A DNA stretch of 44,936 nucleotides. Source: Luteolibacter sp. GTDB taxonomy: Bacteria > Verrucomicrobiota > Verrucomicrobiia > Verrucomicrobiales > Akkermansiaceae. Both the position numbers and the translations under genes were made by a program. Positions 1 through 41,989 of the stretch are shown in pieces (the stretch's first letter is position 1; each line of letters opens with the position of its first letter). The DNA is taken from the NCBI GenBank assembly GCA_030828305.1, contig JAURCU010000008.1:1-44936 (forward strand), given 5' to 3'. The notes beneath the pieces were generated by a model. The model made no database searches and was not told where the DNA came from. It worked only from the letters and a program-made list of their open reading frames with translations.

Positions 1-1257
1 ATTTCCACCGAGCATTTTGGCCATAACCTGGTCTGCCCGGCCTGCAAGGGCAAGCTCAAGGTCGAGACTCCCACCGACAAAGATGCATCGAGTTCCGGCT
101 CCGATCACAAACCGCAGCGCACGGGCTGGCCGGAACGCGACCATGCCAATCCGAATTTCGGCATCAGTCTGGCCATCGCGGTTGCGGCCACCGCCGCCAT
201 CCTTGCCGCCATGATTCCCATCCGCGACACCCGTGTCGGCGGCTTGTTTCTCGACCGTGGTTGGGTCAACTACGCCGAGGCCTTCCTATTCTGCTGGGGC
301 ATCACCATTCTGATGATCAAGCTGCGAATGAATCAGCTGCAGCAAAGAGCGGCCGTGCTCAATCTGTTCCCGCAGTCCTTGGGGCATGAAATCAGCCGCA
401 AGACCGTGGGAGGTTTCATTGACTACATCTACAAGGTGCCCCCTTCGCTCAGAGATAGCCTGATTGTCAATCGCATCCGCAAAGCCCTGGAACTCTTCGA
501 GGCACGCCCCAACAACTCCGAAGTAGCCACTTTCCTGGCCACCCAGTCCGATCTCGATGCCAACCGCTCAAGCGGCTCCTACGCCCTGATCAAGGTATTC
601 CTATGGGCCATTCCCATTCTTGGATTCATCGGCACGGTCATGGGCCTGTCCACCGCGGTGGGAGCGCTTGCGATGGGCGACATGGCCGATCAGGAGGCCC
701 TACGAGAATCGATGAACAAGCTGACCGGTGGCCTGGGGGTCGCCTTCGACACCACACTTCTGGGCCTCATCCTCTCCATCCTCATGAGCTTTCCCCTGGC
801 GGCGGTGCAGAAGCGTGAGGACGAGACGCTTACCATCATCGACGCCTTCTGCAACGAGAAGGTGCTGCCCAAGCTCAACGACAGCCACATGGCGGGCAGC
901 AGCGAGTTGCTCGAACAGGCTGAAAGCATGCCCGCACTGGTCTCCTCCCTGGCCCATGCCCATGAGACTTTCCTCCGCAACCTGAATGAACACACCCTCC
1001 AGCTCAGGGAGAGCGGCGAGCAGTTGCGATCCGGACTCGAGCAACATCAACGCAGGCTCGATGACAGCTTTGAGGGATCGATCAAGAAACTCAGTGATGT
1101 CAGCACCGGCATCTTCAAACGCAGCGACGAAGAGCTCACCAGGACTTTCAAGAACATTGCTGAGGGCATCGACCACATGAACGCTGCACTCGAGAAACTG
1201 GGTGGCAAGCAGGTGCCACTTATGGAAAAAAAGAAAAAGAGGCTGTTCGGACGCTAA
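1..1257 (+). CDS. MotA/TolQ/ExbB-type proton channel with N-terminal zinc-ribbon piece (5' end outside window)
   Basis: The reading frame is open from the first base, so this is the 3' part of a longer gene; the ATG at 211 is internal. The visible N-terminus carries a CPAC motif (VCPACKGKL, about codons 12-20), half of a zinc-ribbon-like module, followed by a polar linker and a first membrane segment around codons 57-75. A second follows at about 88-106. The family hallmark comes next: IPILGFIGTVMGLSTAV and then GVAFDTTLLGLILSILM, the two conserved ExbB/TolQ/MotA helices. The C-terminal 130 residues are polar and probably coiled-coil. By family knowledge it forms the inner-membrane stator that uses the proton gradient. 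It is followed 21 bp later by two ExbD/TolR-like genes, so the three probably form one complex. What it energises is unknown; it is not a standard TonB system because no tonB or OmpA/Pal gene is visible. Confidence 0.85.
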   Translation: MSTEHFGHNLVCPACKGKLKVETPTDKDASSSGSDHKPQRTGWPERDHANPNFGISLAIAVAATAAILAAMIPIRDTRVGGLFLDRGWVNYAEAFLFCWGITILMIKLRMNQLQQRAAVLNLFPQSLGHEISRKTVGGFIDYIYKVPPSLRDSLIVNRIRKALELFEARPNNSEVATFLATQSDLDANRSSGSYALIKVFLWAIPILGFIGTVMGLSTAVGALAMGDMADQEALRESMNKLTGGLGVAFDTTLLGLILSILMSFPLAAVQKREDETLTIIDAFCNEKVLPKLNDSHMAGSSELLEQAESMPALVSSLAHAHETFLRNLNEHTLQLRESGEQLRSGLEQHQRRLDDSFEGSIKKLSDVSTGIFKRSDEELTRTFKNIAEGIDHMNAALEKLGGKQVPLMEKKKKRLFGR

Positions 1258-1278
1258 CCCAAAAATCCGACAATCCCC

Positions 1279-2079
1279 ATGGGTAGAAGACGCATCACGG
1301 ATGACGGAGGGATCTCGCTATTTCCCTTCCTCAGCATTCTTGCGTGCCTGATCGGAGTGCTGACCCTCATGATCAGTGTGATGACCCAAACTCACTCGTC
1401 CGACACGGCTGGTCAGAGCGAGGAAGAAATTGCCCGCGCCAGAAAGCGCAGCAACCTGATCACACTCGCCGAGGGCTTGGAGGCGGAGCTCTCCAAACTG
1501 GATCAAAGGGTCCGCAATGAGCGCGCCAGCGCTACCCAGCTCGAGGAGGTCCGCAGCAAAATCGCCACCCTGCGTGCGCAACTGCAGCAACTCACCACGC
1601 AGGGGCAGGACCCCGCCGAAATCCAGAAGCGCATCGAAGCCCTGCAGGGCGAACTCACCAAACTGCGCACCAGCCCCGAGCCGCTCTCAAAACGAATCCA
1701 ACAGCTGCAAGCCGAGATCAAAGAGCGCAAGGAGGCACCCGAGCCGCCGAAGTCCATCGAGATCCGACCCCGGGCAGACTGGAATCGCCCCTCCCACGTG
1801 TTCTTTGTCGAATGCAACGGCCAGGGCATCACCCTGCTCATCCCCAATGGCAAGCCGGTGACAGTCAACAGTGCAGACATTCCCAAGAGCGGCATCTACA
1901 AGGATTTCCTGGGAAAAATCAAGAAAGTCCGTGACCCGATGATACTCTACCTGATTCGCCGCACCGGATACTCGAATTACCGCTGGGCCGCCCATGAGGC
2001 CATCGAGAAATTCGAACTGCGGACCGGCAAAATTCCGCTGCCCCATGAGGGCAAACTCGACCTCTCCGGGTTTCAGTAA
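1279..2079 (+). CDS. ExbD/TolR-like coiled-coil protein, variant lacking the membrane aspartate
   Basis: This 266-residue protein has a short cytoplasmic N-terminus and one membrane helix (SLFPFLSILACLIGVLTLMI, about residues 13-32). A long Glu/Arg/Gln-rich coiled coil follows (about 50-160), then a periplasmic alpha/beta domain of about 100 residues. The topology and position after an ExbB-type channel match ExbD/TolR. In ExbD and TolR the helix carries a proton-translocating Asp in a P-x-x-D-V/I-L context. Here the matching stretch reads FPFLSIL, with Ser where Asp is expected. I therefore infer a non-protonating partner that would pair with the Asp-bearing protein encoded 2 bp downstream. 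It belongs to the same operon as the channel gene. The coiled coil is longer than in classical ExbD, and the role of the C-terminal domain is not recognised. Confidence 0.7.
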   Translation: MGRRRITDDGGISLFPFLSILACLIGVLTLMISVMTQTHSSDTAGQSEEEIARARKRSNLITLAEGLEAELSKLDQRVRNERASATQLEEVRSKIATLRAQLQQLTTQGQDPAEIQKRIEALQGELTKLRTSPEPLSKRIQQLQAEIKERKEAPEPPKSIEIRPRADWNRPSHVFFVECNGQGITLLIPNGKPVTVNSADIPKSGIYKDFLGKIKKVRDPMILYLIRRTGYSNYRWAAHEAIEKFELRTGKIPLPHEGKLDLSGFQ

Positions 2080-2081
2080 TC

Positions 2082-3191
2082 ATGTCTCGCCGCAACAGAC
2101 CAGCCGATGCAGGAGTCAACCTCGACTCCTTGATGGATGCCATGACCAATGTCGTGGCGGTACTCATACTGGTGCTGTTGCTCGTTCAGGTGGACGTCAG
2201 CAACATGGTCCAGCAGTTTCTGGACGAACTGAAACCCGCCACCCCCGAGGAGGTCGCCGAGGCCCAAGCTCGCGTTGACCTGCTCATCAAGAAGCGCGAC
2301 AACCGTCTGAGCATTCTCAAGACGGCGGCCCCCGATCCGGCAATCCTCGAGGAAGAAAAACAGCGCTTGGCCATGTTGCAACAACAGCTCGAGACGGCCA
2401 AGGCCCGCACCTCGGAGCGCAACAAGGCCCTTGAGCAGGCAGCGAGGCTGCGCAAAGAGCGCGATGCTTTGCAGGCCAGGATCGCCACCCAGGAAAAGCA
2501 GGTGGCGCAATTGGGCAAGCAGCTAGAGGCCACCCCCATCAAGGTTGCGCGCCCCGATATCGTCTCCGTTCCCGCCAGCCGTCCGATTCCAGAGGGTGCC
2601 AACGTGTTCTATTGCTACGTGATCCACAACCGCCTGCATCTGATTGATCCGGTCACCCCGCTTCGACGCTTCGAGCGTGAGTTCAAGATAAACAAGACCA
2701 AAATCAAGCACGAGCGTATCGAGCAGCGCGGCGCGGACCGCTATCGCCACGACACCCGGGCCGTGCTCACGCACTTCAAGAACTTCAACTGGGGGCCCAG
2801 CCAGCCCGGACAAAAAGTCACTCTGGAAAGCACACCTTATTGGTCAAGATTGCACATCCGCATCACCCTCGACCTGGACAAGGGCGGCGTCTCCGCCAAC
2901 CAACTGGAGTCAAAAGACTCGCCCTTTCATCAGGCCTTGCTGGCACTCTCCCGCCAGCCTGGCAGCGTGCTGATGTTTCGGGTGCATACCGACTCTTTCG
3001 AGACCTATCTCAAGGCCCGCGACATTGCCGACATCGTCAAGGTCCCCGCCGGCTGGGAAGTATACTGGGCCAGGCATCACCAGTTCCCCATCATGTCCAT
3101 GGAGGTGAAGCCCTATGGCGAGGCTCCAGTCGACCCGAACGCCAAGCCAAAGCCTCCCAGCCCGCCCACGCTGAAGCCGACGCTGGACTAG
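2082..3191 (+). CDS. ExbD/TolR-like coiled-coil protein with conserved membrane aspartate
   Basis: This 369-residue protein starts 2 bp after the previous stop, so translation is probably coupled. A short polar N-terminus leads into one membrane helix, about residues 14-38 (NLDSLMDAMTNVVAVLILVL). The Asp of LMDAM lies where the essential proton-carrying Asp of ExbD/TolR is found. A coiled coil of about 100 residues follows (55-155). The periplasmic domain of about 200 residues is rich in aromatic and basic residues, and the tail is Pro/Lys-rich. With the preceding two genes it forms a three-gene energy-transducing unit. The soluble domain resembles nothing I can name. It is unlikely to be MotB or ZorB, because no OmpA-like peptidoglycan-binding motif is visible. 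A dispersed repeat starts about 20 bp after the stop. Confidence 0.72.
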   Translation: MSRRNRPADAGVNLDSLMDAMTNVVAVLILVLLLVQVDVSNMVQQFLDELKPATPEEVAEAQARVDLLIKKRDNRLSILKTAAPDPAILEEEKQRLAMLQQQLETAKARTSERNKALEQAARLRKERDALQARIATQEKQVAQLGKQLEATPIKVARPDIVSVPASRPIPEGANVFYCYVIHNRLHLIDPVTPLRRFEREFKINKTKIKHERIEQRGADRYRHDTRAVLTHFKNFNWGPSQPGQKVTLESTPYWSRLHIRITLDLDKGGVSANQLESKDSPFHQALLALSRQPGSVLMFRVHTDSFETYLKARDIADIVKVPAGWEVYWARHHQFPIMSMEVKPYGEAPVDPNAKPKPPSPPTLKPTLD

Positions 3192-3409: not shown

Positions 3410-4105
3410 TCAATCACGCTTGTGGCGCAATAGCGTCAGCAAAGCACACCCAAAAGTCATCAACAAGGCCATGCGGGGTTCGGGGACTGCTCCATTGAAG
3501 GTGTCAGTGGCAGTACCGTCATTGTTTGCATCTTGGGTCCAATATTCAGAGCCAAGAATCGTTCCAGAACCATCGTTGAGTTGCAGTATAGCGCTACCAT
3601 TTTTGAGGAAATAGTTGTCGGTTGACGCATTGACAGCGCTGGTGGTCAGGGTAACCGAGTAATAGCCTGCCTGCAGAACCAATGCGGTGATGTCAAAATT
3701 TTCAAGTGTTGAATAAAAACCATCTACCTCTGCCGATGTCAGATTTGACGATCCGAGCAAATTATTGCCGGCAAGGTTTCCGCCCAGCCCACTCCAAACG
3801 GAGAAGGTAATATCCTCGCTTGTCTTGCTTCCGCTCTTTAGCCCAAAACTCCCTCTCTCTACTGTGAGTGAGTAGCCGGAGTTCACAGCAAAATTCCAAA
3901 CCCGCGGAGTGTCAATTGAGACCGGATCGTTGGCGCCAGTGTTGTCGACTGTAATCAAAACACTAACAGCCTGCACGCTGTGGCATAGCAGGAAGAATGT
4001 AGCAAACCCAACGAATGCTGGGAGCCTGAGGGTTTTGTGGGTGAGTTTCAAATTAGGGACAACCCAGTGATGCCTTACAGCAAGAAAGTCAAGCATTCGT
4101 TCCAT
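3410..4105 (-). CDS. PEP-CTERM sorting domain protein
   Basis: The C-terminus has the PEP-CTERM layout: VPEP, then a hydrophobic stretch (MALLMTFGCALLTLL), then the basic end RHKRD. By family knowledge such proteins are exported and processed by an exosortase, usually in exopolysaccharide-producing bacteria. The export signal is the hydrophobic run LPAFVGFATFFLLCHSVQA, followed by a mature domain of about 170 residues with many Ser, Thr, Asn and Gly. The frame is open upstream to 4261, but those residues look non-coding. I chose the ATG at 4105 (MERML); an ATG at 4096 or a later TTG is possible, and no strong ribosome binding site decides. The mature part resembles the choice-of-anchor domains common in this phylum, but no enzyme motif is seen. 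Confidence 0.72.
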   Translation of the reverse strand: MERMLDFLAVRHHWVVPNLKLTHKTLRLPAFVGFATFFLLCHSVQAVSVLITVDNTGANDPVSIDTPRVWNFAVNSGYSLTVERGSFGLKSGSKTSEDITFSVWSGLGGNLAGNNLLGSSNLTSAEVDGFYSTLENFDITALVLQAGYYSVTLTTSAVNASTDNYFLKNGSAILQLNDGSGTILGSEYWTQDANNDGTATDTFNGAVPEPRMALLMTFGCALLTLLRHKRD

Positions 4106-4253
4106 GCATGCCTGGAAGACGAGCTTAATCCAAAAGTGGCGGCCTGAGCGCATTGTGAGTGCCGAATGGGCCAATTCTCCCGCAGATTTGGCATATCCAA
4201 AGCCATGGCCTTCGCCAAACGCTCTGGGTGGAATGAACTCGGCAATTTGGCGG

Positions 4254-4436
4254 GTTCGCATGCCAGCCGCCAGGGAGGCTTTTCAGGCGTTGCCCGATGA
4301 CGAATGGAAATTGATCTGGCGTCCTCAAGATAGCCGCAAGCTGCTCTTCCATCTTAAAGCGCATCCCCACAAGCAACATGACCTCACCAGTGCCGAAGCC
4401 CATGCGCAAACCCTCGCCGTCAGCGCGCCAGGATGA
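4254..4436 (+). pseudogene. Sulfatase C-terminal remnant
   Basis: In one plus-strand frame the translation contains DDEWKLIWRP and, after a short gap, LLFHLKAHPHKQHDL. This matches the C-terminal signature of formylglycine sulfatases, where a YKLI-type strand is followed by an (E)LYDL-x-x-DP-x-E-x-x-NL motif. Nothing upstream resembles the sulfatase catalytic core with its C/S-x-P-S-R motif, and the frame stops at 4436. I read it as a scrap of a decayed sulfatase gene, consistent with a polysaccharide-degrading lineage. It overlaps the upstream part of the minus-strand PEP-CTERM reading frame, which argues for the shorter start of that gene. Confidence 0.5.
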
Positions 4437-5427: not shown

Positions 5428-8400
5428 GTGGTGAAGCAACTTAACGAGGTGCGATTGATCATTCTAGCTTGGCTATATTGCGGGCTGGCATTTGGCCAGA
5501 CTTTGAAAGTGTTTGTCCTGACCGGTCAGTCGAACTCACTGGGGACTCTGGCCGCCACCGATAATACGATGAACGCGGTGGCTGCGGGCGACGATCCGAT
5601 TGATGCGAGGGTGCTGTTTTTTTGGGACAACCGGGCGGATGGGACACCGGCCGGGAATGCGGGACTGGGCAACTCGGCTGGGTGGACGACACTGGGGCCC
5701 CAGACCGGCGGGTACTATCCGGGCAACGACGACCACTGGGGGCCAGAGGTCGGCTTCGCGAGGATGCTGTGGCGTGCCGGCTACCGCGATTTTGCCATCG
5801 TAAAGGCATCGCGAGGCGGCGGTGGAAACAGCTTCTGGGTTAAGGATTCGGCGGACGACCACATGTATGATCACGTGGTGGAGACAGTAAATGCCGCAGT
5901 AGCGGCCCTGCCGGCGGGCTACATCAGTCACGAGCTTGCCGGGCTGCTGTATGTGCAAGGCGAAAGCAATAACGCGATCGAGGCGGACGAGGCCGGGACA
6001 CGCTTCGCGTCCTTGCTGGAAAATCTGAGGGTGGACCTTCCTAATGCGGCAAGCATAAGGGGAATCCTCGGCGAGATTGGCGGGGGATCAACAAATGCGC
6101 GCAACTTGACACGAAGTCGTCAGGCTACCTTGGCCAATTCGGAGGCCGGCATCGGCTACGCCAGTGCGGTGGGAACAACCCAACATGACGGTCTCCACTA
6201 CGATGCAGACAGTATTTTGCTTCTCGGCGAGAGGATGGCGGCGGCGGCGCTCGGAGCAGGGTGTTTCAGTAACGAGCCGCTGCCAGCGTGGGCGGAGGTG
6301 CATGCGTGGTATCTCGCCGATAGCGGCATACGCGGCGCCAGCACGGTAGATCGCTGGGCGGATCTTGCAGATGGCAGCGGCACTCACGACCTGACACGCA
6401 CGGTGAACGGTGGGCCCGGGCGCAAGTCGGTGACGGCCGCGGGTGAGGTGCGCCAGGTGATGGATTTCAGGGGCAGCGCTGATTTGTGGGCTTCGAGCGA
6501 TGAATTCGGCAGCCTGAGCAATGGTCGTAGCGTGGCGGTAATATGCCGGGTGCCTACGGCAATGAACGGCTACCTGTGGGACGGCTCAACTTCGAACGGG
6601 CGGACGAGGGTGCAGGTGCGTGATGGCGACTGGCAGGCAGGCGTGGCGAATTCTTGGGATGTCGCCGAGGGGGTGACTGCCCCGCTCGAAGCGGGGGACT
6701 GGCAGCGGCATGTGTGGACTTTCGATGAGGTCGGCGCCTCGACGGAAATCACCCACTGGATCAACGGCGTGGAGGCGGGAACGGCAAGCGATACGAACTC
6801 GGGCGCTCTCTCGGGTTTCATCGTCGGCTCGAATGGCGGGAGTCCTGTCAAGCATCTCGAGGCGGAGGTAGCGGAGGTGGCAATCTTCAATAAGGTGTTA
6901 GATTTTTCCGAAATCACTGAGCTTGAATCCCTCTGGAATACGCGCTGGGGAACGATCACCGGACCACCCCTATCGATCTCAGTGCTGCAAGAAGATCGCA
7001 TGATCCCGCGCTTTAGCTGGCACGAGATGATGACCTTGACGATCGCCTTGCCAGCACCGGGTTCGACGCTGGAGAAAGTGTCACTGACACTCAAGCCGGG
7101 GACTCGCGAACGCATTCGGGCATTGAGGCTGCGCGGCGCTGGGGGCGTACTTGGGCAGGTGGAAGATCCCGCTACCGACACTCTAAGTCTCACGGTTTCG
7201 CAGGCCCTCGCGCAGGGCTCCAACGAGCTGCGGCTGGAGGTCGAGCCGCATCGCTGGGGCACGCTTGGCGGAGAGATCGACGCCACCCTCGATGAGATAG
7301 TACTCTCTGGAAATGAGGCAGGTTCGGCTGTTCCAACGGACGACGATCCGCTCGGGGCGCTGACGCTGGCGGCCATGCCTTTGGTCTCGGATGTGCGGCG
7401 CAGCGGGGACTACGGGATCGCGACCTATCGAATTCCCGGGATCGCGTGCGATGACCAAGGCGTGCTGCACGCCGTCTTTGATCATCGCTGGAGCGGAGGC
7501 AGCGACCTTCCGGCGGATGTGGATGTGGGCTATGCGCGCAGCGAGGATGGTGGGGCCTCTTGGTCGGGGTTTCAGCCCATCCTCGACTTCGATGCCTCGG
7601 TGCCGGGCTCCTCGGGCAACGGGGTGGGAGACCCGGCGATCCTCTGGGATCCGGCAACCAGGACGCTATGGGTGGCTGCGCTGTGGTCTTTTGGAAACAA
7701 CGGCTACCTTGGCTCGGGCGCGGGGACAAATCCCGTGGACACCGGACAGTATGTGCTCACCAAGAGTGAGGATGGCGGCCTGAGCTGGTCACCGTCCATC
7801 AATGTGACAGTCGATGTGAAGGACGATCCGAACTGGCGACTTATCTTTCAGGGACCGGGTCACGGATTGGCAATGCGCAACGGGACCCTGGTGTTCCCCT
7901 CCCAGTATATCAACTCCTCGGGTGTGGTCCGCATGTGTTCAGTGTATAGCTCGGACCACGGGGCGACATGGGATTTCGGTTCCGGAATTCCCGATAGCTC
8001 GCCGCAAACCAATGAGAACACGGTGTGCGAGCTCGACGACGGACGGCTGCTTTTCTCCGGCAGGACTCCAAGCGGTTCGAATGGTCAGCGGGCTTGGGCC
8101 TACTACACGCCGGGTGGTGCGGCGCCGATGCGCGATGGTTCCTGGACCGATGTCTTCCGACTCGCCTCGGTTCCTGATCCAGTGTGCCAAGGCAGTGTGA
8201 TCCAATGGAAGAGCACCTTGCGCGGCGATCCGCTGGAGATCGTCGCCTTCGTCAATCCGGGCAGCTCGAGCAGCCGTGCGAATCTGACCTTGCGTGCGAG
8301 TGCCGACGGCGGCGCGACTTGGCCGGTCTCGAGACTGCTGTATGGCGGCTCCTCCGCCTACTCATCGGCATGCATCCTACCGGACCGATCTCTTGGAATA

Positions 8401-8832
8401 CTTTTCGAAAAGGACAACTACACCCGGATAACTTTCATGCGGGTTGAGCAAGAGTGGCTTTGGAATGCAGAAGTCGATGGCGATGGCGACGGCATGCCGG
8501 ATGCGTGGGAGGTCTTGCACGGCACCGATCCGGAAGTGGATGACGCCGGGGCGGATGCCGATGGCGATGGCAGCCCGAACCGCGTCGAATACATTGCCGG
8601 GACGGCCCCGCTTGATAGGGCCTCGGTTTTCCGCCTGACCAGCTGGCTAAAGGGGGGTGGCGGCGGAAATCTCTCGTGGTCCACGGTGCCCGGCAGGAGT
8701 TATGCCGTGGAAAACAGCACCAACTTGGAAGAGTGGAACGTGGTCGAACGGCTCAAGGCATCGGGCACAGCACTCAGCCGCTCCGTTCAGCTCGACGCAG
8801 CGACAGGCTTTTATCGGGTGCGAGTGGAGTAG
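5428..8832 (+). CDS. Secreted sialate O-acetylesterase / LamG-like / sialidase multidomain enzyme
   Basis: This 1134-residue exported protein begins with a signal peptide ending near AFGQ. Residues about 25-275 form a SASA/SGNH-type acetylesterase: nucleophile motif LTGQSNS at 31, YVQGESN near 175 and DGLH near 253. Residues about 288-515 look like a LamG/concanavalin-type domain. A beta-rich linker leads to a sialidase domain with the Arg-Ile-Pro motif YRIPGI at about 666 and four Asp boxes: SEDGGASW (705), SEDGGLSW (780), SSDHGATW (841) and SADGGATW (958). A Ca-binding DGDGDG stretch at about 1017 precedes a C-terminal domain ending in FYRVRVE, common in secreted verrucomicrobial proteins. 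I infer removal of O-acetyl groups and release of sialic acid by one polypeptide. The start is GTG at 5428 or 5431; a TTG at 5455 after GAGG is also possible. Confidence 0.85.
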   Translation: MVKQLNEVRLIILAWLYCGLAFGQTLKVFVLTGQSNSLGTLAATDNTMNAVAAGDDPIDARVLFFWDNRADGTPAGNAGLGNSAGWTTLGPQTGGYYPGNDDHWGPEVGFARMLWRAGYRDFAIVKASRGGGGNSFWVKDSADDHMYDHVVETVNAAVAALPAGYISHELAGLLYVQGESNNAIEADEAGTRFASLLENLRVDLPNAASIRGILGEIGGGSTNARNLTRSRQATLANSEAGIGYASAVGTTQHDGLHYDADSILLLGERMAAAALGAGCFSNEPLPAWAEVHAWYLADSGIRGASTVDRWADLADGSGTHDLTRTVNGGPGRKSVTAAGEVRQVMDFRGSADLWASSDEFGSLSNGRSVAVICRVPTAMNGYLWDGSTSNGRTRVQVRDGDWQAGVANSWDVAEGVTAPLEAGDWQRHVWTFDEVGASTEITHWINGVEAGTASDTNSGALSGFIVGSNGGSPVKHLEAEVAEVAIFNKVLDFSEITELESLWNTRWGTITGPPLSISVLQEDRMIPRFSWHEMMTLTIALPAPGSTLEKVSLTLKPGTRERIRALRLRGAGGVLGQVEDPATDTLSLTVSQALAQGSNELRLEVEPHRWGTLGGEIDATLDEIVLSGNEAGSAVPTDDDPLGALTLAAMPLVSDVRRSGDYGIATYRIPGIACDDQGVLHAVFDHRWSGGSDLPADVDVGYARSEDGGASWSGFQPILDFDASVPGSSGNGVGDPAILWDPATRTLWVAALWSFGNNGYLGSGAGTNPVDTGQYVLTKSEDGGLSWSPSINVTVDVKDDPNWRLIFQGPGHGLAMRNGTLVFPSQYINSSGVVRMCSVYSSDHGATWDFGSGIPDSSPQTNENTVCELDDGRLLFSGRTPSGSNGQRAWAYYTPGGAAPMRDGSWTDVFRLASVPDPVCQGSVIQWKSTLRGDPLEIVAFVNPGSSSSRANLTLRASADGGATWPVSRLLYGGSSAYSSACILPDRSLGILFEKDNYTRITFMRVEQEWLWNAEVDGDGDGMPDAWEVLHGTDPEVDDAGADADGDGSPNRVEYIAGTAPLDRASVFRLTSWLKGGGGGNLSWSTVPGRSYAVENSTNLEEWNVVERLKASGTALSRSVQLDAATGFYRVRVE

Positions 8833-9361: not shown

Positions 9362-12300
9362 ATGAAAGTGGAGCATCGTCTCAGCCTGTTGCGGTGGCGG
9401 CGTGGATTAGCTCTTGTTGTCGCCCTTCTCATTCTGGTTTGCCTGATTCCAATCGCGGTTGGGTTACTGAGCTTGTCGAGCGTTGAAACCCGTTCGAATG
9501 CGGGCCTGGAAGCGCAAGCCATAGCAAGAGCCAACGCCCGCCTTGCGCTCATGCTCGCTATCGATGAACTGCAGAAGACACTGGGGCCGGACACTCGGAT
9601 GAGCGCCCGGGCCGAGACACTGGCACTTGATCGCCGCCTTCGGGCAAGGGTAATGCCGGGATCACCCAAGGCATGGTGGGTAGGTGTATCAAGCAGTGAC
9701 CCCGAGGCGGGCCTTCAACAATCAAGCGCCGGAAGCGTTGAAAAGTCCATTTCATGGCTGGTATCAGGATTGGATCCGAACGCCACCCCTGCAGAGCAGA
9801 TCTCTGATTCAAATCCCTTTCGAAGAGCGATCACCATGTATGGTGAAAACAGCATCAATACCCAAATGCAGACGGGCAGCCAGCCCATCGAAGCTGGCCT
9901 CATCGATCTGAGCAACGGAACCGGAGGCTTTGCCTGGATTATCGATGATGAAGGCATGAAGGCGCAGATTGCGGCCAGTCACCCAGACGTGTGCAATCAG
10001 ATGGAAAAGACGGCGGGAAGAGGACTCCTGCCCGGCACCTATGACATAAGCATCCTTGAAGACATGGAAGGCCTTGCGGGAACACCCCCGGACCAGATCC
10101 ATAAAATGATCTCACTCAACGACATCAGCCTTCTCGGAGGATCCGTGAATACCTCACGCGACAAGCGCCTCGGCTACACCACCTTCTCCAGAGGTGTTCT
10201 CTCAGACGTCAAGCACGGCGGACTCAAGAAAGATCTGACAATGGCTTTTGAGCAGGAGGGAAATGACCAGCCCAGCAGCACTTTCCAAGCAGTATTCGGC
10301 AACAGCAGCAGAGGCTTCTCGGAAAAATACATCGTGATGGAACCTGAAAAATTCCAACAATGCTCGGATCTCACCAAGCACGGCTACATTCACTGGGAGA
10401 TGCTCCTGGATTTCTACAATACCAAGAAGCATATTTTAGTCAGGGACGGAATGGAATATCTGGACAGCATCATGATCACCAAGGAGGGGATCTTCAACAG
10501 GGACAACAATCCATTCAAGCTCGGCACTCTGGGCCCGCATGAGATCGGCAACAACCCCTCGACTTCGCCCTTTCATTTTGAAATGCCATACGGCAATTAC
10601 TCCCCGATTCCCCCGGGCAGCAACGGCAAAAAGCGCGACGGCAGCCCATCCAAGACCGAGTATTACAAGCATAGCCCTCCCATTGCTATTCTCATGCGCA
10701 TGCAGCAAAATGCGTGGCTGTCGCGAAGTGGTCAGAGCAACAACCAGAAACTGCGAACCAACGTTCAATTGTGGCATGCCCAATACAACCCCTACAATAT
10801 CGGCATCAACGTCATCGGTGATGGCAGAGCTCATGGCCCGCGCATCATGCACTACCCGCAAGTGTTCTTCAGCCATGAAGGCTTGAAAATCAGTCAGGGC
10901 AACGGCAACGCCATGAGCCTGTCCCGGGCCTCCGGGTTCTCCGGCAAGCGTCAGACACATGTGCCGCACGAGGTGCTGCTGGGGCCCGGCCGCACTCATG
11001 TTTACGCATTCAGAAACCACGGCGCCATCGGCCGCGACAATGACGGTCTGAATTATGATGATGCGGTCAAAGACTTAACCCTGGAGAGCATATACCGCGA
11101 TCACCAACTCATCTCGGCCACGCCTGGCACGCTCACTTTCGATTTTGTGTTGGAACGCCCCTCGATGATGCATGGAGCCAATTCCAATTCAGGCAACGCA
11201 AGTCACGAGGTGACACAGGTCATGTGGGCCCCCTTCGGCTGGGAGGCCATCAATGGAAAGCCCGGAAAGCGAATCCAAAAAGCAGACGTCAGCACCTCCG
11301 AGCTCAATCAAAACACCATGGCTTCCTTCAGCTTCAGGCTGCGTACGGCCCGAGAACCGGCAAGTGCAGGCAGCCCCGCAATCCGACCGCTTGTGGATGC
11401 GAACATTCGCGCCATGATGTGCAATACCAGGTGGGACTCACCCCTCAACTTGCCTTTGCTTGCCGCTTACTCCGCTGATAATGAGGGAGTTGTGGAAGAG
11501 CAAATCATGCAGATGGACACCAGAGACGCTCCAAAGGGATATGCCTACTGGGGCGCAGGTCGTGATCCCGTAGACGGTTACGACAGGGTCATTCTCTTTG
11601 ATGTACCCAGGGAGGATCTCGTTTCCTTGGGGCAGCTCCAGCATGCCAACATTGGCCGCTTCAGCTACGAGCCGACCTACATTGTCGGAAACTCCTATGC
11701 CAACCCGCGCATTCCCAGAGATCAGTGGAGGGCCTCAATTACAGACACCTTCAGCAGTTCTGATCGCGGCTTGGCCGGCTGGAAAATACCCGGCAATTTT
11801 TATCTCTACGACGCTTCTTATCTCGTCAACGAGGTTTTATGGGACAGCTACATCTTCACCACCATCCCACAATTTGCCGACAATCGGGATGCGAGCACTG
11901 ATCTTCAACCAACTGCATCCACTTTCCAGGCATTGCGTGAGGGCAGGCTCCTGCTTCCCAATCCTCGCTTCATTCCCTACGAGCCTGCCGGATCCTCTTT
12001 CGACCGGGCCACCTTGAGCATGACAACCAACGACCCGGAGAGAACCGGAGCTTTCCACCACAATGCGGGGCACCTGATGGTGGATGGCTCATTCAATGTA
12101 AATTCTACCTCGGCAGACGCTTGGGAAGCGTTTCTTTCAGGCACTCACAGGCTTCCCTATCAAAAGCTCGACTCAAATGGCAGAATAACCGGCTTTGAGA
12201 GAAGCGTTGAAGGCGTGCGGTTTCCCCGCGTCTTGGCCTCCTTGGGTAGCCCCATGAAGAAGAGTGCTCTTGACGAGAATTTTTGGACGGGATTTCGTGA

Positions 12301-12829
12301 TCTGAACAAAAATGAGGTGCGCTATCTGGCAGAGGCCATCGTTGATGAAATCAAAAAACGCGGTCCATTCCTCAATATGGGTCAATTTATCAATAGGGCG
12401 CTTGAGAACAATGAGCATGGAGACCGGGGAGTGTTGCAAGCTGCTTTGGACAAAACCATCAACTCAAACCTGGATCCCAATTTTGGCGAACAAGCCACAC
12501 ACCCCAATGTTGCCACCGGAAGTAGTCAGGGCTCTGGCTTTCCGGGGCAGATTCTTCAGGGTGACATCCTTCAGGCTCTCTCCCCCTACATGACTGTCCG
12601 CTCCGACACTTTCACCATCCGGGCCTATGGCGAGTGCAGAAGCCCCAAAGGGAACGGAAAAATACTAGCCCGCGCCTGGTGTGAAGCTACGTTACAGCGC
12701 TATCCTGATGCGATGATGAGCGCATCTGCCGACAAGCCTCCGCTTGAAGAACTCATCAATCCGTCTAGTCCCTTCGGAAGACGCTTTCGCATGATTTCAT
12801 TTCGTTGGCTGAGTCCCGAGGAGGTATGA
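9362..12829 (+). CDS. Verru_Chthon cassette protein A-like giant pseudopilin
   Basis: This 1155-residue protein has a prepilin-like N-terminus: basic MKVEHRLSLLRWRR, then a hydrophobic helix (LALVVALLILVCLIPIAVGL) and a polar region. This is the layout of the Verru_Chthon cassette A family of Verrucomicrobiota. The C-terminal part has FNVNSTSADAWEAF, RGPFLNMGQFINRAL, DTFTIRAYGECR, RAWCEA and a final ISFRWLSPEEV. All recur almost unchanged in the gene at 13764, so the two are paralogues. The FNVNST and RGPFL blocks loosely recall GspK, the large minor pseudopilin of type II secretion; that link is inference. The role is unknown, probably in an envelope-spanning filament or secretion device. 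The next gene starts 22 bp after the stop, so the pair is probably one transcript. The ATG at 9362 directly follows an inverted repeat copy. Confidence 0.78.
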   Translation: MKVEHRLSLLRWRRGLALVVALLILVCLIPIAVGLLSLSSVETRSNAGLEAQAIARANARLALMLAIDELQKTLGPDTRMSARAETLALDRRLRARVMPGSPKAWWVGVSSSDPEAGLQQSSAGSVEKSISWLVSGLDPNATPAEQISDSNPFRRAITMYGENSINTQMQTGSQPIEAGLIDLSNGTGGFAWIIDDEGMKAQIAASHPDVCNQMEKTAGRGLLPGTYDISILEDMEGLAGTPPDQIHKMISLNDISLLGGSVNTSRDKRLGYTTFSRGVLSDVKHGGLKKDLTMAFEQEGNDQPSSTFQAVFGNSSRGFSEKYIVMEPEKFQQCSDLTKHGYIHWEMLLDFYNTKKHILVRDGMEYLDSIMITKEGIFNRDNNPFKLGTLGPHEIGNNPSTSPFHFEMPYGNYSPIPPGSNGKKRDGSPSKTEYYKHSPPIAILMRMQQNAWLSRSGQSNNQKLRTNVQLWHAQYNPYNIGINVIGDGRAHGPRIMHYPQVFFSHEGLKISQGNGNAMSLSRASGFSGKRQTHVPHEVLLGPGRTHVYAFRNHGAIGRDNDGLNYDDAVKDLTLESIYRDHQLISATPGTLTFDFVLERPSMMHGANSNSGNASHEVTQVMWAPFGWEAINGKPGKRIQKADVSTSELNQNTMASFSFRLRTAREPASAGSPAIRPLVDANIRAMMCNTRWDSPLNLPLLAAYSADNEGVVEEQIMQMDTRDAPKGYAYWGAGRDPVDGYDRVILFDVPREDLVSLGQLQHANIGRFSYEPTYIVGNSYANPRIPRDQWRASITDTFSSSDRGLAGWKIPGNFYLYDASYLVNEVLWDSYIFTTIPQFADNRDASTDLQPTASTFQALREGRLLLPNPRFIPYEPAGSSFDRATLSMTTNDPERTGAFHHNAGHLMVDGSFNVNSTSADAWEAFLSGTHRLPYQKLDSNGRITGFERSVEGVRFPRVLASLGSPMKKSALDENFWTGFRDLNKNEVRYLAEAIVDEIKKRGPFLNMGQFINRALENNEHGDRGVLQAALDKTINSNLDPNFGEQATHPNVATGSSQGSGFPGQILQGDILQALSPYMTVRSDTFTIRAYGECRSPKGNGKILARAWCEATLQRYPDAMMSASADKPPLEELINPSSPFGRRFRMISFRWLSPEEV

Positions 12830-13763: not shown

Positions 13764-16700
13764 ATGCGGACAATTCACTCCCCAATTCCCAATCCACGCC
13801 GCCAAGGCGCAGGCTTCAGCTTGGTAGTCACAGTAACGATGCTCGTCGTGCTGAGCGTCATTGCCATTGGGCTGCTCACAATGTCCACGATTTCCATCAA
13901 ATCAACGACCATCAACAGCGCGCAGCAGCGAGCTCAGACGAACGCCCGCATGGCCCTTAAAATGGCCATTGCCGAACTTCAGCTCATGACTGGCGCCGAC
14001 ACACGCATCACCGCTCCCGCAGACATCATGGATGAGAGCAACCCCCCCGTTTTGGGTGTTTGGCGGAGCTGGGAGGGCACCGACCATCAAGCCAACGGAT
14101 TGCCCATCGCCCCGACCTACGCCGCCAAGGGGGTTTCGGAAACCAGTGGCGGACGATTTGTCGGCTGGCTGGTGTCCGGCACCACCGCAGCTGGCAATTT
14201 GGGTGTCACGGGTGCCCGGGGTCTCGTATCAACCAGCCCGACTGGAGACACGATTCCACTCCTCGCCAGTGGTTCGCTCAGAGATGATGACCCTAAGCAG
14301 GTCCACGTCATGCCAAGTCTGGTTGAGGACACCGGGCGCTATGCCTGGTGGATCAGCGGCGAAAACCAGAAGGCTCGTCTCGCCCAGGCCTACGAGGCGC
14401 GAAGCAATAATGCAGCCGGGCTGGCTGAAATGGGCAAATCCCACAGCATCACCAACCCCGAAGTGTTCGGGATGACCAATCTACTGGGTGACGAGGAGCC
14501 CCACAACCCAGGCATGGCCGCTTCCAGACCCGCACGCAAAGCGGCGACCCGTCAGTCCATGGCCCTGATCATGGCTGGTAACACGGTGCAACCCCAACTC
14601 AAGTTTCATGACTTCAGCACTTCCTCCAGCGGCTTGCTGACCAACACCGCCACTGGTGGGTGGCGCAAAGACATGTCTCTGCTCACTGAAAAATGGAATG
14701 AAGTCTACGCCCGCTACCCGGGCGGCCAACTCCCACTTTTCCGATTCAGTCCAAATCAGGGTGATACATCACGGGTACCGTTGCCCACCATCAACAATCA
14801 TGGACCAAGAGGGTGCACCCTCTATCCGTGGAGTGAGTATTCGCTGATTCTGGGCTTCAAACAGCCCTGCACGTATCATGCTGCCTCCGCCTCATGGGCA
14901 TCGCTGGCGAGTTATGCCACCGCTTATAAGAATTTCTCTGCCGGAAGCTATGGCCCAACCAGCCCATTCATCTGGGACAAGGTCGCCAAGCAGAGGGCCA
15001 GCTCAGTGCAAAACAGCGAAATATACAACCACAAGCACCGCCAAAGACTTCATCCCCAAATCGCGAGATTCCAATTCCTAGTGTATGCCAACGCGATCGA
15101 GGACCCAAGGCGGCTCAATCAAAACCCCAAGCGCTATCAATTGAGGATGATGTACTTGCCAGTCTTCACCTTGTGGAATCCATACAATGTGACCCTTGAG
15201 CATGAAATTCGGGGCACGCTCAATGCAGGGCAAGGCAGCGGCAAACATCAAAACTTTCTTGGCTTCGGGTTTAGGCGGGGGGCGCCATGCGTCATGGCGC
15301 TCGAAGCAGCAGGCAGCGGCAATGCTCCGCCCAACACAACACCCGACACGCGCTACCGTCTGCTCACCAATGGCAATTTCCAGACCTTGGACTGGCCCAG
15401 CAATTACGCCAATCCCTATGATAACCAGCTCCCCGGAAACTCAGTAAAATTCGGCACAACTGGCACTTGGAATGATTTGCGCACCTGGGGCTGTTGGCTG
15501 CCGGAGGGCACCCTCAGATTCAAGCCCGGGGAAGTGAAGGTCTACTCACCGGCTTTCCGTGATGCCGGATACGGCTTTGGGGGTGGATGCTTCAGGCTCA
15601 GGGAGGGCTTTGACATTGCCGGTGAGGCGGGATCCATCACCACTCGAGGCATGCCGAGCAATCTCACCGCAGACCGAACCTACTGGTTCATGTTTCGCAA
15701 CGACCGTTACACTCAACCCTATCGTGATCGCAGTCCCGGGTATGGGTTCTCCCTGTCATGGGGTGACGGCAGCTCGCACTTTGGTGGATCTGCGCAGCAT
15801 CCATCCGGGATCGGAGATGAGTATCACAACATCACCACTCTGGCATCGGGCGTGGACGGCTCCGACTACTGGCCCAACAACGAGCTCGATCCCATCGCCT
15901 ACTCGGTGGCAGACCTGGAGGGCCGCTGGGTTCCCCTATTCTCCGCAAGCTTCGGCCCACGCATGACACTGGGAATTGGCCCGGGCACACAGCAAAACCG
16001 CCCAACCAAGGGTGTTGCCCAAAACGATGCTTTGGCATCGATGGTGGTGAGTGATCCTGGCAGTGGAGATGCCAAGGACCATCCGGTGAACAACACCTAC
16101 GACTTTGCCTATCATACACTGACCGCCAATTCGACCCTGACTCCTGGCTTCACCGACTCGAAGGGCTTTATCGCCACCGGCTCACAGAGCGGTGACGGAA
16201 TCTCGCGACTGATCATGTCCGAAATTCCATTGCGCCCGATGGCTTCTCTAATTGAGCTTCAAAGCTGGAACCCGAAGGGAACCAATCCCTATCCCCCGCT
16301 CCACATGAACCTGATCGGCAACAGCGATGCCACACCCCTGATCCCTCGCAATCAGGTACTGCCGCCCAGGCTAACCCCCAATTCCCTGGCAAACAATCTG
16401 GTTCACGATGATTCCTACTGCGCCAACCATCTGCTGTTTGACGACTGGTTCTGCTCTTCCATCGCACCACTGCCTTACGGGTTCGGCGGCACTCCGGACA
16501 AGGACACCGCAACCGTCTACCGTGAGTTTGTATCGGGAGATTTGCAACTTACCAACCGCGCCTACCAACCCATCCCCACGGATCGAGGCCTGGGCTTGGA
16601 TGGTGTCAACAAACTGGTTAATGAGGTGGTCAACAGCCCGCAAGGCGATGGCTGGTTGAAAGTCGCTTCCCGACTCGAGGTCGAGGGGATGTTCAACGTG

Positions 16701-17495
16701 AACTCGACTTCGGTGGATGCATGGAAGGCACTGCTCGGCCACGCCAAGAACTTTGACCAGATCGCCATGCATGGCGCCAACGACATTGTTGATGCGGACA
16801 CCACCGACAAGCACCCGGTCACCCGCGGCACGGTTGCCACCGATGTGGAGGCAGGCGCAGCCACTGGATTCGGCGCGCTCTTCGCCAATGCTTCGGAATA
16901 CACCGGACATCGCGGCCTGAGCGATGAGCAGATCGAGGACCTTGCTGATAAAATCGTGGCGCAGGTCCGTCTGCGCGGCCCGTTTCTTTCCCTGTCGGAA
17001 TTCATCAACCGCCAATTAAGTAACAACACCGAGCTTGCTCTTGCCGGCGCGGTTCAAAGCGCCATCAACAACCTTACGGATGATCCGATGGCCAAGTTGC
17101 GCAATCCTGCCAACATGCTCTCAGACAACACCATGCATCCCAACGATCCAAAAATCCGGAATGCAGACTATGAGTTCCCTGAAGCCGCTGTTGGCAGCAG
17201 TGCCTACGGGGCCCCGGGTTGGATTCGCCAAGCTGACATCCTGCGTCCGATCGCACCGATCCTGACCGTTCGCGATGACACCTTCACCATCCGCGCATAC
17301 GGTGACGCATTGGACGCCTACGGCAATGTTGAAGCCCGTGCCTGGTGCGAGGCCGTTGTTAAGAGAACCCGCAATTTCGCGGACGCCACCGAAGAAGCCG
17401 ACTTGATTGATGCTCCTGGCCAGCCGGCAAACATCCGATTTGGCCGTAAATATGAAGTGATCTCGTTTCGCTGGCTGAACGCAACCGAAGTCTGA
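13764..17495 (+). CDS. Verru_Chthon cassette protein A-like giant pseudopilin (second copy)
   Basis: This 1243-residue protein has a prepilin-type N-terminus with a G-F-S processing-like site (RRQGAGFSLVVTVTMLVVL) and a following helix, closer to a class III prepilin signal than its paralogue at 9362. Shared C-terminal blocks are FNVNSTSVDAWKALL, RGPFLSLSEFINRQL, DTFTIRAYGDALD, RAWCEA and the ending ISFRWLNATEV. The central 800 residues are rich in Asn, Gly, Pro and aromatics, with place-holding loops such as YNPYN/WNPYN in both copies. A ribosome binding site (ATGGAGAT) lies about 10 bp before the ATG. The 231-base gap after the first pair is AT-rich just upstream, so this pair probably has its own promoter. 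The function is unknown; presumably it is part of a filament or secretion apparatus. Confidence 0.82.
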   Translation: MRTIHSPIPNPRRQGAGFSLVVTVTMLVVLSVIAIGLLTMSTISIKSTTINSAQQRAQTNARMALKMAIAELQLMTGADTRITAPADIMDESNPPVLGVWRSWEGTDHQANGLPIAPTYAAKGVSETSGGRFVGWLVSGTTAAGNLGVTGARGLVSTSPTGDTIPLLASGSLRDDDPKQVHVMPSLVEDTGRYAWWISGENQKARLAQAYEARSNNAAGLAEMGKSHSITNPEVFGMTNLLGDEEPHNPGMAASRPARKAATRQSMALIMAGNTVQPQLKFHDFSTSSSGLLTNTATGGWRKDMSLLTEKWNEVYARYPGGQLPLFRFSPNQGDTSRVPLPTINNHGPRGCTLYPWSEYSLILGFKQPCTYHAASASWASLASYATAYKNFSAGSYGPTSPFIWDKVAKQRASSVQNSEIYNHKHRQRLHPQIARFQFLVYANAIEDPRRLNQNPKRYQLRMMYLPVFTLWNPYNVTLEHEIRGTLNAGQGSGKHQNFLGFGFRRGAPCVMALEAAGSGNAPPNTTPDTRYRLLTNGNFQTLDWPSNYANPYDNQLPGNSVKFGTTGTWNDLRTWGCWLPEGTLRFKPGEVKVYSPAFRDAGYGFGGGCFRLREGFDIAGEAGSITTRGMPSNLTADRTYWFMFRNDRYTQPYRDRSPGYGFSLSWGDGSSHFGGSAQHPSGIGDEYHNITTLASGVDGSDYWPNNELDPIAYSVADLEGRWVPLFSASFGPRMTLGIGPGTQQNRPTKGVAQNDALASMVVSDPGSGDAKDHPVNNTYDFAYHTLTANSTLTPGFTDSKGFIATGSQSGDGISRLIMSEIPLRPMASLIELQSWNPKGTNPYPPLHMNLIGNSDATPLIPRNQVLPPRLTPNSLANNLVHDDSYCANHLLFDDWFCSSIAPLPYGFGGTPDKDTATVYREFVSGDLQLTNRAYQPIPTDRGLGLDGVNKLVNEVVNSPQGDGWLKVASRLEVEGMFNVNSTSVDAWKALLGHAKNFDQIAMHGANDIVDADTTDKHPVTRGTVATDVEAGAATGFGALFANASEYTGHRGLSDEQIEDLADKIVAQVRLRGPFLSLSEFINRQLSNNTELALAGAVQSAINNLTDDPMAKLRNPANMLSDNTMHPNDPKIRNADYEFPEAAVGSSAYGAPGWIRQADILRPIAPILTVRDDTFTIRAYGDALDAYGNVEARAWCEAVVKRTRNFADATEEADLIDAPGQPANIRFGRKYEVISFRWLNATEV

Positions 17496-39415: not shown

Positions 39416-41989
39416 CTACCGAGCCGGCTTTAACATGAATGACTTGATGGCGATGCCGCGTTGGAAGTGCAATGTGTCCTTGCCGTCGTGCGGTTGCGGC
39501 GAATCCGGATTGCTTCGACTAAACAGCAAGGTGTTCTGCCCCTTCTTGAGCGTGATCGTGACCGGCTCGGTGTTCTGCCACTTTCCGGCTGTGTAAGGAG
39601 ACATCAACGTGGCCTCGGATTCCCCGCCTTGGACGGAGACATGGAGGTTCTGGTTATAATTGACCGTTACCAACCGCGCAGACAATTTGTATTTGCCCGC
39701 TTCCGGGACATCGACGCGGTATTTGAAACGGCTTCCACTTCCTTCGAACTGTGCCGGCCCTGTCGGGTCCTCCTTGGGGCTATTCGCATAGTAATCTTTG
39801 GCGTACACGTCGGCGCCTCGCTCGAAGACGTTGCCGCAGATGTCGTAGAGGCCCCATGGATTTGGCTTCTTCTGTCCCACCGGATGTGGCTTTCCGCCAT
39901 CGTTGCCCTTATACCACGCATAGTCGCCGAGCTTCGTGTGGTCGTCGCCGAAGAACCACGCCGTTGTGCTACCCGCGCGGCAGGCGTATTCCCATTCGGC
40001 TTCAGTCGGAAGTCGGACATCCCTCCCTGTACGATCACTGACCTTCTGACAGAAAGTCCTGGCCTTGCCCGCGGTGATGCCGTTGGGGGTAGTAGCCGGA
40101 TAGTTTGGCTCTCTGGGAGATTCGCCGACTTTGGTTCCCATCATCGCATCGTATTGCTCCTGCGTCACTTCGTACTTACCGAGGTAGAAGCCCTTGGTGA
40201 TGGAGACCTCGTGTTTCGGCAACTCAAAGCATCCAAACCGATTGTCCCAAGTGTTTTCGCCACCCATCACAAAGGTACCCGGCTTGATGTAGACCATTTC
40301 CAGCTTCACTCCATCTCCGAGCTCTAGTGTGAGTTCGCGCGATGTCTGATCGGGTTGGGGCGTCATCGCCGCGCGGACACCCCAATTGGCGTAGGAGTGG
40401 TGGACGTGGTTCTTGTTGCCATCTTTCATGCGCCAGCCGGACTTGCAGAACTTCGCCTCTTGTCCGTATCCACCTCCCCGCACGATCGTTTTGCCGCCAC
40501 CGCTTGGCGTGGAAAAGCGCCCCAGAAAGATTTGCAGGCCGCCGGCAAAGCTCTTCATCGGCAGAACGCATGGGGTGGCGTCGCGCGGGGTGCATGCGGC
40601 AGCCGGAATGGTTATGGAGCCGTCCTTGCCGTAAGTAATCTCTCTGTCGGCGGTCGTGATCGGAGCGGCCATCACCTTTTGCGCCAGGGTGGGACCGATG
40701 GCCTTGTCGATGTCTTGGCTTCGTGTTTTATCGGCTGCGGAGGCTTTGACTTTCTCGATGATGGCGCGCTGGTGACTCAGAGCTACGCCATTCCAGCCTG
40801 CGGGCGGATTGGCAAGATAGGTCCGCGAGGTCCGCTTTTCTCCCAGAAGGTCACCGATCCAGTAGGCCCGCTTGACCTGCACGAATGACTCCCTGTCCTT
40901 GCGGGCTTGCGTCACCGCGAGAAACCAAAGGTCCTTGCTTCCCCACACGCTACCGGCGCCCCAGGCCGGCCCAAGGTTTGGACACCAGCCAGTTGGCGCC
41001 CAACGGACCAGCGCGCCGTGCCTGGGGCTGGGACGAGCGGTGTTCGGAATGCCAAAGGCACGACACATGAAACGGCCCATCGCCGCGCGACGGCCGCAGA
41101 CCCCGCCATTCATGATAATGTTTTGAGCGGGATGCAGGCCGGGCCTATCGAACACCACATGCCCTGAACCATATTTGACGCAGGTGCTGACGATGACCGA
41201 GTAACGCACCGCATCCGGCGTCGCGTAAATGTGGTCGGGACGAAGATTGCGCAGCATTTCACGACCCCAAGCAAGGCCTTCATCCGAATCACCACCGTTG
41301 ACTACCAGCCGAAGCTCCCAGGCCGTGAACTGTCCAAAGGCCGGATCCAGTTCGCCGCCTAGGTAGGCGTTTTGATAGTGTAGGTATCGATTTACCGCGG
41401 CTTTTGTTGCCAGTGCACGGGTCTTTGTGTCCGTGCTTTTCTTCGCGACCGATTCGGCAAACTCCAGACTGACCGCCAGGGCCAAGCGTTGCAGGACACC
41501 CGTCTTCGCCTTGTCGCTTGCCGTTTGGATGTCGGTGTAAATGCGCATCGCCGAGCCGTATTTTCCGCGCCTCGCCCCGTCTGCCACCAGCATCTGCCTC
41601 ATTAGATCCGCATCTGCTAGAAGTTGCTCGATCAACTTTTCCTGCTCCTTGCTCTGCTGGGCGAACTTCGCCAGGCCTTCAGGTGTAGCCTCGTGCAGGA
41701 TCACATACTTCACGAGCTTTGCGTCCAGCTTGCCACTGGCCAAAAACTTCTGCGCTTGTTGCTGCTCCCGGCTCCCAGCGGTTGTTGCTTTCTCCAAGTC
41801 GATCTTTGGGATCTTTGCAGTTAGCTCGGCGCCAAGCTGCTTGAGCATGCCTTGGTATCGCTCGGCCAATGCTCCGGAGGGCTCCACGGCAGATGCTTGT
41901 GACCCCTGACCCGACAGGCAGAACGCGGGTATGACCAGAGCCAAAGTGCAGGCACGCCGAATCTTGGAGATTGAAAAGTGCTTGTTCAC
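39416..41989 (-). CDS. Transglutaminase-like / SUMF1 (formylglycine-generating-enzyme-like) fusion protein
   Basis: This 857-residue exported protein has a signal peptide (LALVIPAFCLSGQGSQASA). A helical region (35-230) is followed by a transglutaminase-like core: GGVCGRRAAMGRFMCRAFGI near 293 and a later His in RHGALVRW. At about 500-530 lies RGGGYGQEAKFCKSGWRM, which resembles the C-terminal block of SUMF1 domains. The main SUMF1 part follows at about 560-745: MVYIKPGTFVMGG, YEVTQEQYDAMMG, RLPTEAEWEYACRAG, GLYDICGNVFERG. The usual GNVWEWCxDW is changed to GNVFERGADVY, so the catalytic Cys pattern is not retained. A beta-rich C-terminal domain (about 755-857) may bind carbohydrate. The GTG start at 41989 is within repeat copy 14. 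I infer a non-catalytic or binding role rather than sulfatase activation. Confidence 0.72.
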   Translation of the reverse strand: MNKHFSISKIRRACTLALVIPAFCLSGQGSQASAVEPSGALAERYQGMLKQLGAELTAKIPKIDLEKATTAGSREQQQAQKFLASGKLDAKLVKYVILHEATPEGLAKFAQQSKEQEKLIEQLLADADLMRQMLVADGARRGKYGSAMRIYTDIQTASDKAKTGVLQRLALAVSLEFAESVAKKSTDTKTRALATKAAVNRYLHYQNAYLGGELDPAFGQFTAWELRLVVNGGDSDEGLAWGREMLRNLRPDHIYATPDAVRYSVIVSTCVKYGSGHVVFDRPGLHPAQNIIMNGGVCGRRAAMGRFMCRAFGIPNTARPSPRHGALVRWAPTGWCPNLGPAWGAGSVWGSKDLWFLAVTQARKDRESFVQVKRAYWIGDLLGEKRTSRTYLANPPAGWNGVALSHQRAIIEKVKASAADKTRSQDIDKAIGPTLAQKVMAAPITTADREITYGKDGSITIPAAACTPRDATPCVLPMKSFAGGLQIFLGRFSTPSGGGKTIVRGGGYGQEAKFCKSGWRMKDGNKNHVHHSYANWGVRAAMTPQPDQTSRELTLELGDGVKLEMVYIKPGTFVMGGENTWDNRFGCFELPKHEVSITKGFYLGKYEVTQEQYDAMMGTKVGESPREPNYPATTPNGITAGKARTFCQKVSDRTGRDVRLPTEAEWEYACRAGSTTAWFFGDDHTKLGDYAWYKGNDGGKPHPVGQKKPNPWGLYDICGNVFERGADVYAKDYYANSPKEDPTGPAQFEGSGSRFKYRVDVPEAGKYKLSARLVTVNYNQNLHVSVQGGESEATLMSPYTAGKWQNTEPVTITLKKGQNTLLFSRSNPDSPQPHDGKDTLHFQRGIAIKSFMLKPAR

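Follow-up and report, generated by a model that had tools for sequence, protein, structure and literature searches.

An ExbB-type channel with two unequal ExbD/TolR-like partners as a candidate single-site motor of the 5:2 class

Can an ion-driven motor of the 5:2 class run when only one of its two axle chains carries an ion site? In the solved motors of this class (MotAB, PomAB, ExbBD and TolQR), which place five channel subunits around two partner helices, the axle is a homodimer that contributes two Asp residues, and alternation between the two is assumed in rotary models. The question is raised by three consecutive genes, here called A, B and C, at the start of the window, which is the whole 44,936-nucleotide stretch analysed and corresponds to contig C170 from base 1, part of a draft genome of 2.39 Mb. 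An earlier note had described positions 1-3191 as a channel gene with two unequal ExbD-like partners. We found this trio to be real: three ORFs lie there on the + strand, separated by gaps of a few bases, and A scores above the cut-off for PF01618. The partners are unequal as claimed, but the first gene downstream of A is the Ser partner (B) and not the Asp partner. The contig starts inside gene A, and the 5' end of A is therefore missing. The features of the locus are as follows.

1..1257, + strand: gene A, a MotA/TolQ/ExbB-type channel matching PF01618, read as 418 aa with about 14 N-terminal residues missing
34..45, + strand: CPAC, the second CxxC of an N-terminal four-Cys zinc ribbon whose first CPxC precedes the contig start
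574..675, + strand: pore helix of A with KVFLWAIPILGFIGTV, placed by hydropathy, alignment with PomA and diagnostic columns; Val199 is type-diagnostic
724..813, + strand: pore helix of A with AFDTTLLGL, placed by alignment with PomA and diagnostic columns; Thr251 becomes Ala in the sister type
868..1254, + strand: C-terminal helical cytoplasmic tail of A, resembling the ZorA tail in a weak and compositional way
1279..2079, + strand: gene B, an ExbD/TolR-like partner of 266 aa with Ser19 at the proton site
1318..1395, + strand: membrane helix of B, LFPFLSILACLIG, with FPFLSIL and the Ser19 codon at 1333-1335
1408..1731, + strand: coiled-coil stalk of B (model helices 48-151, pLDDT 60-78)
1771..2076, + strand: periplasmic TolR/ExbD-like domain of B, from comparison with TolR 5by4 by Foldseek and VIA-align
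2082..3191, + strand: gene C, an ExbD/TolR-like partner of 369 aa that keeps the membrane Asp
2121..2222, + strand: membrane helix of C, LDSLMDAMTNVV, with DSLMDAM, Asp15 at 2124-2126 and Asp19 at 2136-2138
2244..2531, + strand: coiled-coil stalk of C (model helices 55-80 and 86-150)
2583..3089, + strand: periplasmic TolR-like domain of C with an inserted segment, from VIA-align comparison with TolR 5by4

Gene A belongs to the MotA/TolQ/ExbB channel family, since it matches PF01618 (MotA_ExbB) with 41 bits against a cut-off of 22.9 in the profile search and with 44.6 bits in the genome search. The named relatives of the window are Akkermansiaceae and Verrucomicrobiaceae, and the nearest for gene A are Verrucomicrobiaceae E54 and Haloferula rosea. 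The CPAC motif noticed earlier in front of the channel helices is present, but it belongs to a four-Cys ribbon whose first half is cut off by the contig start. In the alignment, nearly all full-length relatives of A carry the complete MxxxCPxC...CPxC ribbon, and the ribbon of A gave sub-threshold matches to Zn_ribbon_4 and to the LysW ribbon.

The three genes were found to form a strict cassette. B occurs in 52 of the 145 sampled genomes of the family, and all 52 of these also contain A and C, which is the strict co-occurrence that had been proposed as support for the trio. Three further genomes have a partial set consisting of fragments at contig ends, and one compact genus of the same family in the sample (g18) gave no match to the cassette. 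In one genome (G319; loci L198 and L199) C lies on a different contig from A-B; a copy of one transposase fragment is found close to each break, and all three genes are kept. The gene order A-B-C is shared by 20 relatives of the order, and 80 named loci are alike in this layout apart from broken contigs and a few exceptions. No recurring neighbour family was detected around A-B-C among 20 loci. The upstream genes, which had been expected to reveal the target of the system, gave none, as the contig begins inside A and the relatives lack a common neighbour. A literature search on this cassette family in Planctomycetes/Verrucomicrobia found nothing.

One channel gene in strict association with two partner genes is the arrangement that characterises AglRQS-type systems. 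The AglRQS gliding motor of Myxococcus xanthus likewise combines one channel with two different MotB/TolR-like partners, a likeness of architecture; however, both of its partners are described as having a conserved Asp (PMC9389320), whereas the cassette has Ser in one partner, with matching changes at pore residues of A and C. The present genome also contains eight other PF01618 channels and ten PF02472 matches. At three of its loci (C75, C115 and C157), two ExbD-like genes stand in a row beside a channel gene as in the cassette, but with Asp in both partners. Loci with one ExbB-type channel and two partners are thus ordinary in this genome, and it is the Ser in one partner that is unusual.

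B and C are built alike: a short N-terminal stretch of basic character leads into a single membrane helix, which is followed by a coiled coil and then a periplasmic domain. Profile-profile alignment with hhalign (probability 98.9, E 1e-17) indicates that they are paralogues, and it pairs B Ser19 with C Asp19 and B Phe15 with C Asp15. The earlier reading of a membrane Asp in one partner (LMDAM) and a Ser at the same place in the other (FPFLSIL) is confirmed by this alignment. There is no acidic residue in the membrane helix of B, so no other acid of the Ser partner takes the proton site, and a membrane Asp is found in C (Asp19) and not in B (Ser19). Both residues fall on the ExbD Asp in local alignments against four ordinary ExbDs of the same genome, although these matches are non-significant (E 0.14 and 0.069). 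Asp19 of C is invariant among the aligned relatives. A further acid in C, Asp15, precedes Asp19 by one helical turn; the earlier account did not mention it.

Beyond the membrane, the long coiled coils that had been proposed are present, but the periplasmic domains are not unrecognised, as Foldseek and VIA-align place both with TolR/ExbD. PF02472 (ExbD/TolR) gave no match in B or C up to E 1, nor up to E 10 in the genome search. The AlphaFold2 models of B and C have mean pLDDT values of 77 and 85, respectively, with the periplasmic domains mostly above 90. For the B domain, Escherichia coli TolR (5by4) is the top VIA-align row with a moderate Z of 7.7, and the ExbD entries follow at Z 6.2-6.7 (8pek Z 6.7, 8p9r Z 6.3). 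For the C domain, TolR 5by4 is again the top row with a moderate Z of 6.4 (rmsd 2.5 over 87 residues), and the next rows reach 4.6. Foldseek assigned TolR (5by4) a probability of 0.99 for B and 0.54 for C. On the models, the periplasmic domains of both partners are most likely of TolR/ExbD type by fold. The cassette is therefore like TolQR and ExbBD in its PF01618 channel and in partners with one membrane helix and a periplasmic domain of this type; those systems differ in having a homodimeric partner with two Asp residues, no ribbon and no long coiled coil, and their PF02472 profile misses B and C. We also observed that many C proteins of the Prosthecobacter type (L051 10241-11788 and relatives) have an extra periplasmic insert of about 130 residues, present in both of the cassette types described next.

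The type found in the window (S-type) has FPF[LM]SIL in B, DSLMDA in C, and KVFLWAIP and FDTTLLGL in A. A sister type (D-type) has [IV]PFLDIL in B, VALMDT in C, and [KR]AFLWAIP and FDATLLGL in A, so that a sister-type B such as IPFLDIL places an Asp exactly in the Ser column. Some near-duplicates being included, position 19 of B (97 sequences) is Ser in 74/74 S-type and Asp in 23/23 D-type sequences, position 15 of C is Asp in 72/72 and Val in 21/21, and position 251 of A is Thr in 74/74 and Ala in 20/20. B Ser19 thus occurs with C Asp15 plus Asp19 and A Thr251, and B Asp19 with C Val15 and A Ala251. When counted on 85 cassettes thinned for redundancy, B19, C15 and A251 were discordant in none (0/85). 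Val199 or Ala199 in A follows the type nearly without exception. Only nine columns in 1053 residues are fixed differences between the types (A R86H, E93N, V199A and T251A; B S19D and A22C; C D15V, S16A and A20T); every one of them lies in a membrane part, and the periplasmic domains contain none.

The pore helices of A also align with those of the MotAB/PomAB stators, whose partner domain is OmpA-like where those of B and C are TolR-like, and no flagellar context was seen around the cassette. Thr212, Thr251 and Thr252 of A align with Thr158, Thr185 and Thr186 of PomA (numbering from alignment chain offsets), and in PomAB these three residues line the ion cavity near the partner Asp (PMC10374538). 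Since Thr251 is the equivalent of PomA Thr185, the A residue that switches with type has its counterpart in the ion-site lining of a relative of known structure.

The Asp/Ser asymmetry holds as a site alignment, but it is not conserved across the family, as the sister type has Asp in both partners and B of the wider group also carries Asp. Elsewhere in the phylum, in other classes (L180-L186), the genes encode a GYF-domain protein, A, a B protein with LFSFQDI (Asp), a C protein with SLELLLDTMCNTFGG (Glu at -4) and a Gly-rich protein. This cassette is recurrent, includes a partner with LLLDTMCNTFGG, and is preceded by a long protein. Two genomes (G205 and G260) have, in an alignment made by eye, SSFMAVL in B with Ala at the site and DSFLDIL in C with Asp at -4 and 0. 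From these motifs, the pair appears to be a second lineage in which one partner has no acid. The small SSFMAVL/DSFLDIL pair lies between a channel gene upstream and fabZ/lpxA-like genes downstream (L190 4081-5259 and L191 4044-5227). Judged from these alignments, the -4 acid of C is found widely across the family and is missing from the D-type. We considered Asp15 of C as simple compensation for the Asp lost in B; this fails, because C of the wider group has Glu or Asp at -4 while B keeps its Asp.

We also compared the history of the membrane and periplasmic parts. In the tree of the channel core, the D-type fits a single clade nested among S-types (AU p 0.56). In the tree of the C periplasmic domain, in contrast, the D-type needs nine changes and a single clade is rejected (AU p 1e-36), and in that of the B periplasmic domain it needs six changes and a single clade is again rejected (p 8e-5). 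This indicates that the membrane parts of the three proteins change together, and that these segments stay associated when the periplasmic domains combined with them change. For example, the C proteins of L110 (S-type) and L142 (D-type) are 85% identical over the protein and mostly 84-100% identical beyond the membrane part, yet the membrane segments differ in type in all three proteins, and a similar B periplasmic sequence is flanked on both sides by dissimilar membrane segments. At the DNA level, fourfold sites between L110 and the D-type loci L142 and L124 are near saturation. The pattern fits an exchange of membrane parts. Thus, the trees suggest that the membrane parts of A, B and C travel together and the periplasmic domains are exchanged or retained, which is our principal ground for placing the helices of B and C in a single A pore. 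On well-supported branches there are five independent switches in the C tree and three in the B tree, all in the expected direction; a sign test on these independent pairs gave p 0.06 and 0.25, respectively, and five or three pairs cannot reach 0.05. Because A, B and C are linked, part of the covariation is accounted for by their being inherited together or exchanged as a block.

Based on these comparisons, we lean towards the reading that A, B and C make up one inner-membrane ion-driven motor of the 5:2 class, in which an A pentamer would surround one B and one C (A5:B1:C1) and the single ion site of the S-type would be Asp19 of C, assisted by Asp15. That the pore-site residues of all three proteins change together argues that the helices of B and C sit in the same A channel, and one pore with one B and one C would give a single-site 5:1:1 motor in the window. 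This reading is supported, at the level of sequence, by the strict cassette, the paralogy of B and C with equal architecture, the covariation without exceptions, the nine membrane-only columns, the trees, and the match of Thr251 to PomA Thr185. In the S-type, only C would offer a carboxylate at the classical site, with a second one turn below, and B would offer Ser19. Ion flow past Asp19, Asp15 and the threonines of A would turn or shift a B-C axle, whose coiled-coil stalks would hold a pair of TolR-type domains out in the periplasm; the likely contact of these domains there is the cell wall or a partner in the outer membrane. The sister D-type would work with one Asp on each partner. We infer the obligate B-C heterodimer proposed in the earlier note, together with the 5:1:1 stoichiometry, ion conduction, rotation and a periplasmic target.

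Alternatively, the working motor may be A5C2, a C homodimer with two Asp19 residues in the pore, and B a paralogous accessory that sits outside the pore or in a non-conducting complex and regulates assembly. C alone has everything that a 5:2 motor needs, B has no Asp, and in the Ton system of E. coli an extra helix, that of TonB, packs outside ExbB (PMC12215075). We nevertheless think this unlikely, as each change at the Ser/Asp site of B is matched by changes at pore residues of A and C, the B of the sister type carries Asp at the pore site, and a helix outside the pore leaves the invariance of Ser19 in all 74 S-type sequences unexplained.

The S/D switch might instead be mainly a change of coupling ion, with Na+ for the S-type, whose Thr212, Thr251 and Thr252 correspond to the PomA triad, and H+ for the D-type with Ala251. 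All Na+ stators keep the three Thr residues, and H+-driven MotA and related stators have Ala at 158 and 185 (PMC10374538), so the alignment of A agrees with this proposal. A has Thr at all three positions that mark Na+ stators, a feature that is non-diagnostic here. The Thr-Thr pair recurs in several ordinary ExbB channels encoded in this genome, which makes the case for Na+ coupling weak, as the pair does not discriminate outside flagellar stators. In addition, Thr212 is common to both types and the A190 position is Leu here, a hydrophobic, H+-like state. An ion switch is therefore quite improbable as the main meaning of the change.

If the single-site 5:1:1 motor is correct, the window may hold a natural rotary motor with one ion-binding partner that takes five 72-degree steps per turn and not ten 36-degree steps. 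In this family, bacteria would repeatedly have swapped the single-site module for one with two sites while the periplasmic domains stayed the same, by simultaneous changes at a few pore residues of the three proteins. We regard this extended reading as possible but doubtful. According to a review of 5:2 motors, a motor whose partner chains are no longer equivalent should take five 72-degree steps, or limping pairs of steps, in place of ten 36-degree ones; the review treats heterodimer formation by AglQ and AglS as an open question (PMC9389320). The present family makes both the heterodimer question and the step prediction testable. Natural one-site and two-site versions that are nine membrane columns apart would allow a direct test of whether one site suffices, and also of step-size doubling and of the roles of Asp15 in C and Thr251 in A.

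The cassette is very unlikely to be a Zorya-type anti-phage system. Like ZorA, A is a channel with a long helical cytoplasmic tail, and it weakly matches ZorA models (PADLOC E 1e-11; NCBIfam ZorA_2 27.1 bits); however, the latter score compares with a ZorA cut-off of 100, and no family recurred beside the cassette in 20 loci, as a conserved ZorC/ZorD or ZorE effector would. The cassette also has two partners, both ending in a TolR fold, whereas Zorya has a single ZorB. That B has lost its function and decays, or that its Ser is drift, is scarcely credible: Ser cannot carry a proton as Asp does, but FPF[LM]SIL ranks with the best-conserved stretches of B, and cassettes that keep A and C keep B too.

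Several other genes were observed in the window. A PEP-CTERM protein is encoded downstream of the trio on the - strand (3413-4261; NF038129 E 1.6e-6, below the cut-off). Two very long + strand ORFs (9362-12826, 1155 aa; 13764-17492, 1243 aa) begin with N-terminal hydrophobic, prepilin-like segments, and each is followed by a small protein; no NCBIfam match was obtained. An 810-aa protein on the - strand (39419-41848) gave PvdO and GldK profile matches below the cut-offs and has a formylglycine-enzyme-like domain. Finally, the + strand gene at 5428-8832 encodes a 1134-aa protein that combines a sialic-acid acetylesterase domain (SASA) with sialidase BNR repeats and a TSP3 repeat.
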